Positions 15,960 through 30,947 of a stretch of DNA of 64,000 nucleotides are shown piece by piece. The notes under the pieces were generated by a model. It was given only the letters and a program-made list of their open reading frames with translations, searched no databases and was not told where the DNA came from. Positions within the stretch are counted from its first letter, which is position 1, and each line of letters begins with the position of its first letter. This stretch comes from Phycisphaera mikurensis NBRC 102666 (lineage in GTDB: Bacteria; Planctomycetota; Phycisphaerae; Phycisphaerales; SM1A02). The stretch is taken from contig CAMDUB010000004.1 in NCBI GenBank assembly GCA_945878575.1, positions 1 to 64,000 of the forward strand. The letters run 5' to 3'. A program made the position numbers and the translations under genes.

Positions 15960-17414
15960 TTAGTCCGGCGCTTGATTCTGTAACGCTGAGAGCGCGGGAT
16001 GCCAAAGGTAGCCAAGGATCTCTTTGAACCCCTCCACCTGCGCTGCTGTCGGAGTCTTGCCTTTGAGCAATTCGCGTTCGATCATATGAATGAGTGACCG
16101 ATGCGTCTGTCTCGGCATTTCAAGAATCTCTCGATTGGAGAATCCCAATCGAGCCGTCTCATAAATCAGTTGTGATATGTCCTTCTCCGGGACCGGCGCA
16201 GGCAAGCGTGCGAATGCCTCCTCGGCCGCGCTGCGCACCAACCAGTGGCGATCGAGCCGAAGGTGTTCGAGCGTGGAACGATCGACGGTGCGACTCATGG
16301 CGATACTCAGCCTGACCATCCAGTCGCGTGACCGTGCACGTATTTGGACCAATTCTGCCGGGCATAAATCACTGGAGAGAAGTGCAAGATGCTCGGCGGT
16401 GCCACTCACCCACGGGGCGCATGATCGCTCCACGCGCGTTCGCTGCCAAAAGTCGGCAAGCGTGAGAGTGCGTTTCGCGGCTTCTGGTCGATTGTATTCC
16501 GCGATTACTGTAGGCGCGACGTCCGCCGCTTCCGTGAGTGATGCGAAACTCGCTGCGATCGGGGTGTAATAAATCGGATCACTAATTCGCCGATACGAGA
16601 ATGGAGTGCCGTGGCATCGATACGGGATGCCGCAAGGTGATCGGCCCATGTCCCAACACCGAATGGCCGCCCGCAACAACAGGTCAACCGGATCGACACG
16701 ACCGGTTCGGCCGATCGTTCGGTACGTGTCCATCGCGTGCAACAACTTCGCCTCTGGCGGTACGTGCCTCATGATCCGTGCACTCACATCCTTTCGACCA
16801 AGCAACACCAGGCCAGCAACGATCGGTGCACTCGGACTCAAGTGGCCCTCAGCAAGCAGCCCACTGATAAATCGATCCCGCTGCCGGTGAAGTTTGCTAT
16901 GGCCGTAGTCACTCACCGCGATCGCAAGCGGAACCGTCTCTTGCCAACCGATCCCCGATCCTTCCGGATGGTTCAACCGATGAAGTGCGAGCTCCTGTGC
17001 CGGCGTCCCCATCTTGCGCTGATCCCATGGCTTGATAAGAACTTCAAGAACACTCTTGGCCGCATCGGCGCGCGAAGCGATATTCCACTGCACGTAACTC
17101 GCGAGATACTGCGTGGAACCGCCGTGTCCGGTTGTCACACGCTGCGCCACACTCATCCACAAGCCACCGCCGGCACTTTCATGCTCAACGAGCGCTTCGA
17201 GCTGGTCATACTGCAACGTCCCAATGATTGATGGAGATGCAACAACAGCCAACTGCCACGCTGGATTTCCGCAAACTTCCAATGGAAAGTGTGTCAGTAG
17301 CTCTATCAGTTTCTCAATCGGCGTCGATGGATCGGACGCCATGATGGCGCGCTCCGGAAACTGCGCGGCGCGCGTCTCTTCGTCTGGGTATGAATCTGGC
17401 CACGGATTGTTCAT
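15960..17414 (-). CDS. Unknown protein, last gene of MoxR/VWA operon
   Basis: A 484-residue protein I do not recognise. It is mostly helical, with repeated short helices such as FPERAIMASDPSTPIEKLIELL near the start and LEHLRLDRHWLVRSAAEEAFARLP near residue 400, so a HEAT- or armadillo-like repeat fold is possible. The C-terminal quarter has a HRSLIHMIERELLKGKTPT helix. No catalytic motif, signal or membrane segment is seen. Its start overlaps the stop of the amidohydrolase-like gene by ATGA, so it is co-translated with the operon and may be its substrate-binding or structural part. Confidence 0.7.
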   Translation of the reverse strand: MNNPWPDSYPDEETRAAQFPERAIMASDPSTPIEKLIELLTHFPLEVCGNPAWQLAVVASPSIIGTLQYDQLEALVEHESAGGGLWMSVAQRVTTGHGGSTQYLASYVQWNIASRADAAKSVLEVLIKPWDQRKMGTPAQELALHRLNHPEGSGIGWQETVPLAIAVSDYGHSKLHRQRDRFISGLLAEGHLSPSAPIVAGLVLLGRKDVSARIMRHVPPEAKLLHAMDTYRTIGRTGRVDPVDLLLRAAIRCWDMGRSPCGIPYRCHGTPFSYRRISDPIYYTPIAASFASLTEAADVAPTVIAEYNRPEAAKRTLTLADFWQRTRVERSCAPWVSGTAEHLALLSSDLCPAELVQIRARSRDWMVRLSIAMSRTVDRSTLEHLRLDRHWLVRSAAEEAFARLPAPVPEKDISQLIYETARLGFSNREILEMPRQTHRSLIHMIERELLKGKTPTAAQVEGFKEILGYLWHPALSALQNQAPD

Positions 17415-18697
17415 GTTGACTTCCTCTTTCTGATTTTCAGGTTGTTCACTGCATTGTCACGCGCCACCGAAGCGCGCAACGTCGCAATAAGACCAGCAAT
17501 AAATCGTTGGCACTTCTTGAACGATGACCGACGTACCGCCTGTGTGCCTTCCAAATTCATGTACCGCGCGCGGTTGATTTCAATCATGATGGAGAGCACC
17601 CGCCGGTCTTTCCCGTTGTGATTCAAGGGAACTATCGACCCCGAGTACGGCGCATCAACACGTACTGACCAACCTTGTGACTTGCACCACTTTGTTGCAG
17701 CGTGCACAAGCCACTGCGGCGTATGAATGCCCGCCGTTCCAATACACACGTCAGGACGCGGAACGTCGTGGTTCGCGTCCGTTGCAAACGGAACATCCGG
17801 GAATGTGTGGCAATCAATCACCAGCGCACGTGGCGCACGCGCGAGCGCGTCGTCCACTGCCTGCGTTAGCCAGTCATGGTGCAGCCGATACCACGCCGCA
17901 AGAATCTCCTCGCGCCGCGCTCCCGTGATCGGCCGCCGAGTCACGTTTCCGTCATGACCACGTTCGTAGAGAACACCCAGCCCGCGTTTCGCCATCGGCT
18001 CCAACGAGTCGCGCTCGAATCGCTCCGGATCAACCGCTAAGCGGCTGATTGGGAAGATCAACGCTTGGGTGTTCGGCAGGTTGCTATCGAATAGCTCATC
18101 CGTAAAGTGATCCGTCGACGCCGCAAGATGAGCAGACAACTTCTTGTGGCGAACAACAAACTCAGGTTTCAACGAGGCTGGTATCGCTACCTTGCTATGC
18201 GGAATATGCAGGACCAACGGAACCGGCTGCTTTGCGTCGCGCTTTGCCTTCGCGCGCAATACCTTCTCGCGCCGCTCTGTTCGCTGCGCTCGGTTGTACC
18301 GTGGAACCTGCCCGCCAATGGTGTCCATCCAATGCAGATTGACTGACCCGAGGTTCCACTGCGCGTGCGGTACCGATCGAAACAACGCGTCGGCAACATC
18401 AAGAACGCCGTACTGCACGGCCCAGACAATCTGTTCCTCGATGCACCCAGATTTATGTTGATCGGTGTGATATAACGAAGCAGCACCTGTGAGACAGTTT
18501 GGAAAACATCGAATCGCCGCCTTGATTCCCACCGATTCCTTCAGTCGCGAAGCAATGTTCTCCCAGACCTCGGGCGTCGGACAGACGCGGAGATCGGCGG
18601 CGCAGTATTCAAGGAGCGATCGTGCTTGGTCGCTTGCCAGCAACGGATGCGCTGCCGCTTCAGCACTGATATTCGAACGAATTTTCCTTGTAGTCAT
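17411..18697 (-). CDS. N-formylglutamate-amidohydrolase-like domain with extra N-terminal region
   Basis: A 428-residue two-part protein. Residues 1-150 are unrecognised, with several cysteines and a WNLGSVNLHWMDTIGG stretch. Residues 155-415 read like an N-formylglutamate amidohydrolase (zinc-dependent HutG/FGase fold): HIPHS (164-168), STDHFTDELFD (194-204), ISRLAVDPERFERD (217-230), VIDCHTFPD and IEINRARYM. Known family members release formate or act as related metallohydrolases. No histidine-degradation genes are near. It sits between a MoxR/VWA pair and an unknown gene, overlapping both by four bases, which suggests a peptide- or protein-directed role here. Confidence 0.75.
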   Translation of the reverse strand: MTTRKIRSNISAEAAAHPLLASDQARSLLEYCAADLRVCPTPEVWENIASRLKESVGIKAAIRCFPNCLTGAASLYHTDQHKSGCIEEQIVWAVQYGVLDVADALFRSVPHAQWNLGSVNLHWMDTIGGQVPRYNRAQRTERREKVLRAKAKRDAKQPVPLVLHIPHSKVAIPASLKPEFVVRHKKLSAHLAASTDHFTDELFDSNLPNTQALIFPISRLAVDPERFERDSLEPMAKRGLGVLYERGHDGNVTRRPITGARREEILAAWYRLHHDWLTQAVDDALARAPRALVIDCHTFPDVPFATDANHDVPRPDVCIGTAGIHTPQWLVHAATKWCKSQGWSVRVDAPYSGSIVPLNHNGKDRRVLSIMIEINRARYMNLEGTQAVRRSSFKKCQRFIAGLIATLRASVARDNAVNNLKIRKRKST

Positions 18698-19953
18698 CGC
18701 TTACCTCCCATGCGCAACACCGTTCCAAAAGCGAAATCGCATGACTCACGCCCACCCGCGGTGACAACCCACAACACGTCAAGATCCGGTGCGGTCTGCG
18801 GGAACATGCCGAATCCATCAGTGATGTAGATGACCGTCGGCGATGCGTTGCTGCGGGCGCCGTCCGCTGCCACCCGCGCCGCAACCGCGGCGAAGAACGG
18901 CCGGAAGTCCGTTCCTCCACCGCCGGTCGGGGACACGAGCGGCCGATTGACGTCGACCTCAAATGGGCCAACGCACTGCGAATCGGCGTAGTACAGCCGG
19001 CAGCGCACCGATGGATACGAACACACGATGTTCCGCAGTACTCCCAGGAACTCGGAGAGTTGACTGTCAGACACCGAACCACTGGTGTCGATGCACACAT
19101 CGACATCAACCGTGTCTGTCTCGAGGACCTCCACATACAGACCGCGCCACAGGTGACGCCGATCGAATCCAGCAAAGTCATCGGGAGTGCGAACCACCGA
19201 ACGCCAGAGCGCCGATTGCCAGTCGATCTGCGGCGTATTTGCTTCAAGAACACTGCGCAAGAGCGCAGCGGGCGGCGAGCCCTGAGGCAGCTTGCCCGCC
19301 ATTCCCAACGCACAACTCACATTAGCCGTCCACGTGTTGACGAGCTGGGCTGATAGTGCGGATTTGTTACTGGAGTCGTGCGAATCCCCTCCGTCGTCAG
19401 GCAGTTCAACCAAGTCCACAACTTCGAGCTTGCCTGCCTGGCGACGTAATGTCAATCGATTCTTCGAAGTGTCCTTTCTGTCATTGAGAAGTTTTTCATA
19501 GATCTCCTCAACGCACAGCGGCGCGAGCCCGAGATCCTCTACCGCACCCGCCGGCAACTTCAGTTGCTTCATCGAATAAACGATCCCGTTGACATGGATG
19601 TCCGCCGCGATATTCCAAAGCATGTGATCACGAACTCCGCGTCGTGGTACATGTAACAACGCCAGATGAAGCAATTCATGAACGACAACACCATCCAATT
19701 CTTGCGCGTTGAGGCTATGCACGAAGTCCGCGTTGAATAGAAGATCTCGTCCATTCGTGGCCGCGGTCGGAATGGTGTTGGTCATCACGATGGGTGCCAT
19801 CATGAGGAGCGCTCCAAAGAATGGAAATGATTCACTCAAACGAATCTGGCTTGCAGCGAGGCGCTTGCGTTGCTGAACCTGCAGTGCTTCACGATCAGCG
19901 GCCGTGGTGACGTGCGCCTCGCCCACGGGCGCTACGGCGTGAGTGCTACTCAT
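18694..19953 (-). CDS. DUF2201-type VWA-like protein with HELLH metallopeptidase motif
   Basis: A 419-residue protein with the plan of the DUF2201 family. The N-terminal half carries HELLH (92-96) and a following histidine near 101, a zinc-metallopeptidase-like site. The C-terminal half is a VWA-like domain with a MIDAS motif DTSGSVS at 289-295 and GGGGTDFRP and ITDGFG later. Such proteins occur next to MoxR-family AAA+ ATPases, whose partners they are thought to be. Here it overlaps the MoxR gene and the amidohydrolase-like gene by four bases each. Confidence 0.85.
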   Translation of the reverse strand: MSSTHAVAPVGEAHVTTAADREALQVQQRKRLAASQIRLSESFPFFGALLMMAPIVMTNTIPTAATNGRDLLFNADFVHSLNAQELDGVVVHELLHLALLHVPRRGVRDHMLWNIAADIHVNGIVYSMKQLKLPAGAVEDLGLAPLCVEEIYEKLLNDRKDTSKNRLTLRRQAGKLEVVDLVELPDDGGDSHDSSNKSALSAQLVNTWTANVSCALGMAGKLPQGSPPAALLRSVLEANTPQIDWQSALWRSVVRTPDDFAGFDRRHLWRGLYVEVLETDTVDVDVCIDTSGSVSDSQLSEFLGVLRNIVCSYPSVRCRLYYADSQCVGPFEVDVNRPLVSPTGGGGTDFRPFFAAVAARVAADGARSNASPTVIYITDGFGMFPQTAPDLDVLWVVTAGGRESCDFAFGTVLRMGGKR

Positions 19954-20969
19954 GCTGTCACCTGCAATTCGTGATAATCCTTTACGAACGCCTTGAAAGT
20001 TGGCTCAGCAAGCAGCGCGGTGGCTAGCGGCGCCTGCAGACCCTTCGACTGCATCGACTGGCGCAAATCGTGGATGAATGTGCGCGTCCACTCCGTAGTC
20101 ATCTTGGCGGTCAACCATCGGAACGAATTGACGGCGTGCTCGCCGCTGCGTGCGCGCAGAGCCAGACTCACGGTGGTGGCGTACTTGACTGAAAGTTCCG
20201 TCGGAACGTCAACGTGTTTCCCATTCCCTTCAAGAATTGCCTCGACATCGGGCAACGTTTCGAAGAGCTTGATGAAAGCGCTCAGCTCTGCACTCGCAGC
20301 TGCACCGATTACAGAATCTGCAGGCAGACCTGCCTTGAGCAATCGATCCGCCATGAACCACGAGCGAGGCGATGGCCACGCTGGCTGCGTGGGATCAATG
20401 CGATGCAGCAGTTCCGGGCGGAACGATAGAAACGCGATGATCTGTTCCGACACCCCGTGCGCGATCGCATACTTCTTGAAACTCTCTACATCCGGCGAGA
20501 TCTCAATGTGCGCAAATCGATTCGCGAGCGCCGTCGGCATGTCGAACACCGACGCGCGGTCTTCCTTGCGGTTACCTGCGGCCCACACAAACCAGCCGTC
20601 TGGCAGCTGGTAATTGCCAACACGCCGGTCCAGGATCAATTGCTGCGCGACGCCCTGCATGCTTGGCGCGGCCATGTTTAGTTCGTCAAGGAAGAGGATT
20701 CCGGACCCATTACGCGGCAGGAATTCCGGTGGATACCAGCGCGAAACACCGCCGCCCTCCTCCAGTCGCTCGGGGACGGGGAGCCCGCGCAGGTCAGTTG
20801 GCGCAAGCTGACTGACGCGAATATCAATAAAGTCAAGACCAGCCTGCTGTGCGACCTGCGAAACGATGCTTGACTTGCCAACGCCAGGGGCGCCCCAAAT
20901 CATGAGGCTGATGCGAACTTCGTTGGCGACAACCGAAGAGAGGTACGCGAGTAAATCAGACGGATTCAT
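19950..20969 (-). CDS. MoxR-family AAA+ ATPase
   Basis: A 339-residue AAA+ ATPase. Walker A is GAPGVGKSS (26-34), Walker B is ILFLDELN (91-98), AAGNRKED is sensor 1 near 131-138 and ANRFAHIEI follows with the likely arginine finger. The missing N- and C-terminal extra domains are normal for MoxR. These ATPases act as chaperones that remodel a VWA partner and a target. It is the first gene of the minus-strand operon, with a weak AAAGG ribosome site about ten bases before the ATG. Confidence 0.9.
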   Translation of the reverse strand: MNPSDLLAYLSSVVANEVRISLMIWGAPGVGKSSIVSQVAQQAGLDFIDIRVSQLAPTDLRGLPVPERLEEGGGVSRWYPPEFLPRNGSGILFLDELNMAAPSMQGVAQQLILDRRVGNYQLPDGWFVWAAGNRKEDRASVFDMPTALANRFAHIEISPDVESFKKYAIAHGVSEQIIAFLSFRPELLHRIDPTQPAWPSPRSWFMADRLLKAGLPADSVIGAAASAELSAFIKLFETLPDVEAILEGNGKHVDVPTELSVKYATTVSLALRARSGEHAVNSFRWLTAKMTTEWTRTFIHDLRQSMQSKGLQAPLATALLAEPTFKAFVKDYHELQVTA

Positions 20970-21092
20970 GTGACGGAGCCTTTCAAACGTGAGTAGTCAT
21001 TCCAAAGCGCGTGCGCGACAAACAACAACCAACCGCCCGCAACGAGCGGGCGATTCCGAAGAGCGCATGCAGAAATTGGATGAACACCACGC

Positions 21093-21496: not shown

Positions 21497-22246
21497 TTAT
21501 TGCGGATTGTTTCCGCTTTCAGCATCCTCTCGGGCATAGTCCGCCTTGGCTCGATCGAAGTTCATTTCCGGTGCAGCGCACTCGCTGTACCTAGCGGACT
21601 CACGTGCAACGGTGCTCCACAAGCGGCTTGAGCCACGCGAAGATTTCATGACGCCCATGGACTGCTGCGCACGAACTCCCACTGACTCTCCAGAGGCAAT
21701 GGCGCCTTCATCAGCACTCAGGAAGACAATCTGCCATCCGGCTGCACGGCGTTCGGTCACCATGCTGCGCACCTGCGCCCCGGTGAATTCATGGCTCGAA
21801 TTCTCTTGTCCATCGGTGACGATGACAAAGATGATGCGAGCTGGTCGCTGGGCCACTGGCATCGACCGCAGCCGAGTATCGAGATCAACAATGCCTCGTC
21901 CGATGGCGTCAAAGAGCGGCGTGTTCGCACGCGGCACAAATGTTTCCTCGGTCAATTCTGGAACCGCAACGATCGGCGTATAGGCGTGCACCACTTCGTA
22001 CGGGTCCAGCGAATCGAACTGTACGAGGGTGAGTGTGACCTGCGTCGGCAGACGCTTGTGCTCCGCGAGGAAGGCATTGAATCCACCGATCGTGTCCGCC
22101 CGGATGGACGACATGCTGCCGGTGCGGTCCAGAATGACCGAGATTTGCGTGCAGTCCGCCGTGCCCCTGGCGCCAGCAGACGAGCTGGCTGCACTTGCTG
22201 TGTTCTCTGCGTTCCCCGTGTTCCCCGTCGTTGCTTTGTCCGGCAT
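21497..22246 (-). CDS. VWA domain protein
   Basis: A 249-residue VWA protein without signal peptide or membrane segment. After a Ser/Ala/Asn-rich disordered tail of 30 residues, ISVILDRTGSMSS provides a MIDAS motif, FDSL and NTPLFDAIGRG follow, and VIVTDGQENSS is the second metal-binding strand. Such soluble VWA proteins act as metal-dependent adaptors. The start ATG at 22246 follows GAGGAA by about eight bases. It is divergent from the winged-helix protein gene. Confidence 0.85.
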   Translation of the reverse strand: MPDKATTGNTGNAENTASAASSSAGARGTADCTQISVILDRTGSMSSIRADTIGGFNAFLAEHKRLPTQVTLTLVQFDSLDPYEVVHAYTPIVAVPELTEETFVPRANTPLFDAIGRGIVDLDTRLRSMPVAQRPARIIFVIVTDGQENSSHEFTGAQVRSMVTERRAAGWQIVFLSADEGAIASGESVGVRAQQSMGVMKSSRGSSRLWSTVARESARYSECAAPEMNFDRAKADYAREDAESGNNPQ

Positions 22247-29705: not shown

Positions 29706-29960
29706 AGCGCTGCAACACCGAAGGTTGCGATGCTATGCGGAACAGAGCTCACCATGCCCCCCAACGACAAGTCATCCACAATCTGATGATCCGCCACGAT
29801 CCGCGCTGATTTCACTTGCGCGCGCGGCGCTAGGAATTACCATCGTCGCCGATCGCACGTTCCGGAGCAATGCCTAACTCGAAACCACCGGCCGACTGCG
29901 GACGCTCCACGCTCGCATCGGAAGGACATGCTCGCGCACCAACCACTGAAGGAAAGACTC
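29706..29960. other. Intergenic stretch upstream of the RuvB-like gene
   Basis: I see no supported gene or clear promoter in these 255 bases. A GAAGGAAAG ribosome site lies at the right edge. Confidence 0.4.
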
Positions 29961-30947
29961 ATGGACGAGTCAAGAAACGCTCACGCACGCGCAAACGCCA
30001 ACGCCCACGCCAAAGTCAACGCAACGATGCTCGATCACACGCATCTTGTCGCGCCGACCCTGAGTCATCTTGGAGAATGCCCAGCCATCGGTCGCGCACT
30101 TTCAGCGATCGTTGAGCAATCCCTGCAGACTGGCAAGCGATTTCCGCACACGCTTCTCATTGGTGTCGCAGATAGTTCAAAGCGCATCATCGCTGCGACC
30201 ATTGCTGCAGAGATGGCTGTGCCGATTCACTACATCGATTTAGTGCAGATTCGCAGTGGCGACGCTTTGCACGCGGTGCTCCGTCATGTGACAGCCGGGG
30301 CGATAGTCCTGATGAGCGGTATCGACTGCACCCACGAAGGGACCTTCGCTGACCTTGCACGTGCGGTCAACGGGCGTGAGCGACTCAAGGAACCGAGTCT
30401 CGCCTCGTGGATGCGCGAGATGACCCGTGAGGAATGGCAGAAGAACTCCCGGCAAGCCTCATTGAAATACGCAGATTTCACCGTGATTTTGACTTGTCGT
30501 AAGAGCCACCCCGCCCACGCCACCTACCTGCGGTGGGTTGAGCGGCACTACTTCACCAAACAGTACGAAGGAGGCGAAGTTGCACGACTCAGCCGACTCT
30601 TTCGGCATACCGACCGAACCGTCGATGACGACGTGATCTGCCTCATTGCCAAGGTGACCACCACGTTCGGCGTCCGTACTCTTGAGGCTGCAAATGCTAT
30701 CGTCGAGCGAATGCGTAGCAGTGGCATTGAGCGCCTTGACAAGCGCACGTACGGCGAGCATTTTGAGGACATGTTCGCAGCGCTCCTCGACCCAAAGCGT
30801 GTCGCCGCATACAAGAAGAAACTGGAGCGTCTGGAACAGGCTGCCCGAAAGGCCGCCGTAGCGGAAGCAATGCAGCACACCTCGACGGGCGCAACGACCA
30901 ATGCGCCAGATGCTGCATCAAACATCAGCGGCGCGATCGCGGCGTGA
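29961..30947 (+). CDS. RuvB-like AAA+ protein with degenerate nucleotide site
   Basis: A 328-residue protein whose residues 40-240 follow the RuvB core: GECPAIGRALSAIVEQSLQTGK, FPHTLLIGVADSSKRII, IAAEMAVPIHYID, and GDALHAVLRHVTAGAIVLM. Where RuvB has the P-loop GPPGLGKT, this protein has GVADSSKR (68-75), and where RuvB has the DEIH Walker B, it has LMSGID. ATP binding is therefore doubtful. The C-terminus is charged and coiled-coil-like. The ATG at 29961 has a good AAGGAAAG site; an in-frame ATG at 29928 does not. I propose a non-catalytic paralogue of an AAA+ ATPase. Confidence 0.55.
   Translation: MDESRNAHARANANAHAKVNATMLDHTHLVAPTLSHLGECPAIGRALSAIVEQSLQTGKRFPHTLLIGVADSSKRIIAATIAAEMAVPIHYIDLVQIRSGDALHAVLRHVTAGAIVLMSGIDCTHEGTFADLARAVNGRERLKEPSLASWMREMTREEWQKNSRQASLKYADFTVILTCRKSHPAHATYLRWVERHYFTKQYEGGEVARLSRLFRHTDRTVDDDVICLIAKVTTTFGVRTLEAANAIVERMRSSGIERLDKRTYGEHFEDMFAALLDPKRVAAYKKKLERLEQAARKAAVAEAMQHTSTGATTNAPDAASNISGAIAA

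Follow-up and report, generated by a model that had tools for sequence, protein, structure and literature searches.

An LRV repeat protein coupled to one clade of MoxR and metallopeptidase-VWA pairs, with an FGase-fold hydrolase in the operon of one planctomycete genus

Results

Organization of the operon

The window analyzed here, i.e., a stretch of 64,000 nucleotides from Phycisphaera mikurensis NBRC 102666 (contig CAMDUB010000004.1, positions 1 to 64,000), contains at positions 15960-20969 four minus-strand genes in the order A-B-C-D. Together with the features immediately upstream, these are:

19950..20969, minus strand: A, MoxR-family AAA+ ATPase (phrog_1297 type), 339 aa; Pfam AAA 1e-7 and AAA_3 5e-6, phrog_1297 4e-81
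18694..19953, minus strand: B, DUF2201 protein with an N-terminal putative metallopeptidase (HELLH) and a C-terminal VWA domain, 419 aa; Pfam DUF2201_N 7e-30 and DUF2201 1e-12, phrog_1314 2e-59
17411..18697, minus strand: C, FGase-fold zinc amidohydrolase (aa 160-420) with a 150-aa N-terminal extension, 428 aa; Pfam FGase 3e-43
15960..17414, minus strand: D, probable divergent leucine-rich-repeat-variant (LRV) alpha-solenoid, 484 aa, candidate scaffold or adaptor; assigned through the Pfam LRV matches of its homologues
21031..21055, minus strand: terminator-like hairpin upstream of A, between E and the operon; consensus match only
21497..22246, minus strand: E, second VWA protein, 249 aa, a conserved neighbor; phrog_7371 7e-48, same position in genomes G002, G003 and G004

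The four-base overlaps noted in the preliminary description are present as ATGA at every junction, each preceded by a purine-rich stretch, and junctions of the same kind occur in the operons of relatives in several genomes. Comparison of genus members yields dN/dS values of 0.07-0.35 for A, B, C and D, which indicates purifying selection on all four genes. The genes around the operon in the window look metabolic. A 527-bp gap to A and the terminator-like site speak against membership of E in the operon, and E is probably a separate transcription unit. Its location upstream of the operon is kept across the genus and is retained in G004, a genome without A-B-C; homologues of E are found in 215 phage records, chiefly from Streptomyces, Microbacterium and Pseudomonas phages. 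At 9 kb from the operon, window positions 29928-30947 encode a protein with 32% identity to an AAA+ loader-like protein upstream of MoxR in genome G008 (L058 3856-4929).

The MoxR ATPase and the metallopeptidase-VWA protein

The Walker A motif and the R202 region are present in A, and residues G26, G29, G31, K32, D59, N133, R151 and R202 are invariant in the alignment of its homologues. In B, the HELLH(x4)H motif and the DTSGS...T...D metal-ion-dependent adhesion site (MIDAS) are invariant or nearly so among 27 homologues, with H92/H96/H101 and D289-S291-S293...T348...D379 kept in 26 or all 27 of them. A and B hence combine a MoxR-type ATPase carrying Walker motifs with an adjacent VWA partner carrying an intact MIDAS, as is expected of a MoxR-vWA module, and the fusion of the vWA domain to an N-terminal HExxH metallopeptidase domain places B with the phage-type pair. 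In tblastn searches B is linked to large phages, among them Agrobacterium phage Atu_ph07, and 555 relatives of A-B were retrieved among viral contig candidates. The two genes lie on one strand and at most 1 kb apart in 58 of 85 plasmid and viral loci, and the pair is widespread in bacteria and phages.

The PHROGs label of phrog_1314 is 'HNH endonuclease', yet this family matches the DUF2201 metallopeptidase-VWA protein B (18694-19953); the label is also carried by phage records, e.g., from S-TIM5 and phage G. Distant DUF2201-VWA genes adjoin type IV secretion operons on two Burkholderiaceae plasmids (L153 and L155), one of them also near PRTRC genes.

C is a member of the FGase family

C matches Pfam FGase (PF05013) above the curated cut-off, and alignment with relatives reveals that the zinc-site residues H164/H167, D196/H197, H297 and E373 of the family are retained. 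The preliminary assignments of A as a MoxR ATPase, B as a DUF2201 protein (HELLH and VWA) and C as an N-formylglutamate-amidohydrolase-like protein are thereby borne out by Pfam matches and site residues. The FGase domain is modeled by AF2 with pLDDT mostly 90 or more and matches 2q7s in Foldseek (E 4e-14); the model of the N-terminal 150 residues is of low confidence, and 14 relatives outside the genus lack this extension. Fold and zinc-site residues are common to C, the structures 2Q7S and 2ODF, and HutG, whereas C alone has the extra 150-aa N-terminal region and a distinct operon context, and it scores far below the cut-off of the HutG equivalog TIGR02017 (34.3 bits compared with 278.75), a score on which an identity as HutG and a role in histidine use were rejected.

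Beyond the genus, one of the nearest relatives of C comes from a deltaproteobacterium, and FGase relatives of C were not found in viral contigs. Outside the genus these relatives are located elsewhere, and stand-alone FGases occur with no A-B pair nearby. In 5 of 16 other genomes (L015, L016, L017, L025 and L029) the FGase gene lies no more than 4 genes from type I restriction-modification (R-M), Cas9/Cas1 or McrBC genes, a figure that stands without a matched background rate and includes Cas9 and HsdS calls read by eye from sequence in L016 and L017; it hints that the FGase subfamily of C travels in defense islands. Two SAR116 genomes encode a conserved 139-aa protein directly upstream of the FGase (L028 7581-7997 and L029 6036-6452), and the L029 copy has no Pfam match.

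D is best read as a divergent LRV solenoid

Described before as an unknown helical protein, D can now be placed. The window protein has no Pfam match up to E 1, whereas homologues score above the LRV/LRV_2 cut-off: the relative directly after B in G008 matches Pfam LRV at 4e-9, and D homologues adjoining MoxR-VWA genes do so at 2.6e-11 on the Thermus plasmid pTHEOS01 and at 2e-25, up to 5e-27, in Chloroflexota. The aligned D family shares an FPxxxxxNPA motif in the N-terminal part and a VRxAA cap at the C terminus, a profile built from the close D proteins matches the LRV structure 1LRV weakly, and the AF2 model is all-helical, albeit of low confidence (pLDDT 60) and with no significant Foldseek match. 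On these grounds D is best read as a divergent LRV solenoid. Compared with known LRV proteins (PF01816; 1LRV), the repeat pattern is common to D and its clearer homologues; the window D appears eroded and has kept the FPxxxxxNPA motif of the MoxR-linked homologues.

D accompanies one clade of A-B pairs in several phyla

Three planctomycete lineages, Chloroflexota and a Thermus plasmid all encode D-family proteins next to A-B pairs. In 10 Chloroflexota loci D lies directly upstream of or near A-B, with an ATGA overlap in several, and in pTHEOS01 D overlaps MoxR. The position relative to A-B varies, D being upstream in G174 and downstream in G008. A looser case is the Synechocystis plasmid pSYSA, where D is ~4 kb from A-B and on the opposite strand. 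Locus L254, with a fragmentary D placed just upstream, was left out of the adjacent-LRV count because the D match lies partly inside the MoxR region in another frame.

In gene trees the LRV-linked pairs form one clade, with support of 0.999 (A) and 0.976 (B), the Thermus pair being placed in the A tree only. The closest pairs outside this clade are S-TIM5-type phage pairs, which form its sister clade (support 0.965 and 0.999); since both trees are midpoint-rooted, they leave the direction of transfer between phages and bacteria unfixed. No sampled pair outside the LRV clade has D, and D was not found at planctomycete A-B pairs outside the clade of the window; likewise, none of 80 viral loci contains D, C or E. 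Among 50 Chloroflexota genomes, D is present in 13 of 15 with a close pair and in 0 of 35 without one (Fisher p 3e-10, an indicative value that overstates independence because the genomes are related). Close pairs with no detectable D occur in G1158 and G1167, and in some Chloroflexota genomes D is found away from the A-B pair.

D is thus not general to A-B pairs, it is tied to one clade, and the A-B-D module recurs in at least three bacterial phyla. The coupling of a D-family LRV protein to one A-B clade, by which we propose to define a MoxR-VWA-LRV module, has G004, G1158 and G1167 as exceptions. The preliminary description made its proposal depend on conservation of both the hydrolase and the last gene with MoxR/DUF2201; this survives for D, which is conserved with them across phyla and becomes the main result, whereas C is conserved with them only inside one genus. 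On pTHEOS01 (L152 10407-15139) the LRV-MoxR-VWA genes continue with overlapping ends into genes for a 746-aa protein and a UvrD helicase.

Probable insertion of C in the genus

The window, G009 and G007 all have the A-B-C-D order, and contig ends in G003, G010 and G002 carry partial copies. Every FGase homologue in the genus belongs to this operon and is located between B and D. In the sister genome G008 A-B-D are joined directly, B and D overlapping, and there is no C. G004 (97% complete) has two D-like genes at the same site and neither the A-B pair nor C; A-B-C was either lost from this genome or never there. In G004 (L057 2674-8812) the flanks of the window enclose E, a dockerin-like 711-aa ORF and the two D-like genes in tandem. 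The simplest history starts from an A-B-D operon that gained C by insertion in the sublineage of the window. The ATGA junctions on both sides of C have been kept over dS up to about 0.6.

The earlier remark that the hydrolase is not a usual MoxR-VWA partner agrees with these data, C being tied to the pair only in one genus. An FGase as general partner of the A-B pair is ruled out by its absence from the other sampled bacterial pair loci and from the 80 viral loci. Because C is confined to one genus, its functional tie to A-B-D rests on synteny and constraint.

Profiles of defense systems

Neither C nor D has a VMAP, iSTAND or beta-propeller Pfam match, bpMoxR scores 13.7 bits compared with a cut-off of 27, and no match to an FtsH-like component was obtained among A, B, C, D or E. 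PADLOC system profiles give only weak generic AAA matches to A (best 3e-4), and no recognized defense effector domain is present in A-B-C-D. By Pfam and PADLOC profiles, the operon is therefore assigned neither to PADLOC anti-phage systems nor to the published ternary systems. Around LRV modules, mostly from Chloroflexota, each PADLOC family listed matches 1-2 proteins, many through helicase models; the neighbors are mostly not defense genes and not clearly defense-rich.

Discussion

Proposed mechanism

Our main reading, to which we assign a probability of about 0.5, is that A-B-D constitutes a three-part AAA+ machine, with C working on the same substrate in the genus of the window. A would form the MoxR hexamer and, with ATP and the VWA co-chaperone B, remodel a substrate; the MIDAS of B may dock on this target, and the N-terminal zinc peptidase of B may cut it. 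By analogy with related pairs, ATP-driven remodeling by A with B is the safest part of this scheme; because B has an intact HExxH site, proteolysis is likely too, an activity that has also been proposed for the phage pair. The solenoid D would serve as a scaffold or adaptor, selecting the substrate or placing the complex, and since it is conserved with one clade of the pair, D most simply supplies substrate choice. C, translationally coupled to its neighbors, would most likely hydrolyze an amide (acyl-Glu/Asp or a peptide end) exposed or produced by A/B. Complex formation, the adaptor role of D and the sharing of a substrate by C are what we infer from the operon and its relatives; a protein or peptide as the putative substrate of the set, as suggested earlier, is plausible.

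MoxR-VWA pairs are often encoded beside their client; CbbQ/CbbO activate Rubisco and NorQ/NorD activate nitric oxide reductase. In the same way A and B, with D, might activate or metallate C as their client, with C performing ordinary amide hydrolysis. C is indeed a metalloenzyme inside the operon, coupled through 4-bp overlaps, and its N-terminal extension is absent from the 14 relatives outside the genus. We nevertheless consider such a maturation role rather unlikely, as A-B-D occurs without C in G008, Chloroflexota and Thermus, FGases stand alone with no pair nearby, and the intact peptidase site in B is unexpected for a pure activator. More improbable is the view of C as a metabolic passenger, in which a deformylase or some other amidohydrolase was acquired and is co-transcribed by chance with an unrelated chaperone operon: its restriction to one genus, its insertion between B and D and its deltaproteobacterial relative would fit, whereas the exact junctions retained on both sides, a constraint like that of the neighboring genes and the added N-terminal region would not.

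A role of the module in conflict or defense is indirectly suggested by its presence on plasmids including pSYSA, beside toxin-antitoxin genes, by the defense neighborhoods of FGase relatives and by the exchange of third components in published MoxR-vWA ternary systems (PMC7159879). The weak generic PADLOC matches, the lack of VMAP and iSTAND domains, the metabolic-looking neighbors in the window and the LRV-module neighborhoods, which are not clearly defense-rich, argue against it, and overall this role is unlikely. Domestication of A-B from a phage virion-assembly protease system is very improbable. The proximity of the S-TIM5-type pairs and the many relatives among viral contig candidates speak for it, whereas members of the LRV clade come from bacteria or plasmids and the viral loci are devoid of D, C and E. 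In a tree with only three phages, the window pair seemed nested among them; after addition of Chloroflexota and plasmid pairs the bacterial LRV clade became sister to the phages, and domestication was rejected as the main story.

The three-part machine, with D as its defining partner, could be extended to a more far-reaching proposal, which we put forward tentatively: A-B-D may represent a new class of ternary MoxR-vWA systems for conflict or protein quality, found in several phyla on chromosomes and plasmids, in which the LRV solenoid is the sensor. The window may then record how the FGase-fold amidohydrolase, from a gene family often located in defense islands, was taken up as a new effector. 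In the open-access papers searched, the LRV module was not found described, nor was any account found joining MoxR with DUF2201, MoxR with N-formylglutamate, or MoxR with vWA and LRV. The novel part is mainly the LRV partner that defines the module, and less the hydrolase. MoxR-VWA pairs are widespread and few have known substrates, which makes the conserved D solenoid a handle for finding them; its co-occurrence with one A-B clade defines a searchable module, and the genus of the window displays a recent step in which the module took up a hydrolase.

Comparison with known systems

Chaperone-like roles in the maturation of dedicated complexes have been described for MoxR-VWA proteins (PMC3893208). 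RavA-ViaA, CbbQ-CbbO and NorQ-NorD have in common with A-B an AAA+ MoxR protein with a VWA partner that remodels clients; in contrast, B has a zincin-like domain, and there is no respiratory or Rubisco client nearby in the window. The pair of jumbo phages (ASV44729.1/ASV44728.2), for which a function in assembling virions, with structural proteins processed peptidolytically, has been proposed (PMC7824862), consists of the same two proteins, i.e., MoxR and an N-terminal metallopeptidase fused to vWA. However, the sampled phage loci have neither D nor C, whereas the window pair is chromosomal and coupled to an LRV protein and an FGase. In MoxR-vWA ternary conflict systems the third components replace one another, the classes being VMAP, iSTAND, FtsH and a fourth (beta-propeller) class (PMC7159879). 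These systems and A-B-D both combine MoxR, vWA and a conserved third component in one operon, but here the third component is LRV and not VMAP, iSTAND, FtsH or beta-propeller. A-B-D is best read as a putative LRV-targeted MoxR-VWA-peptidase machine that is akin to the published ternary systems and differs from them in its third component.
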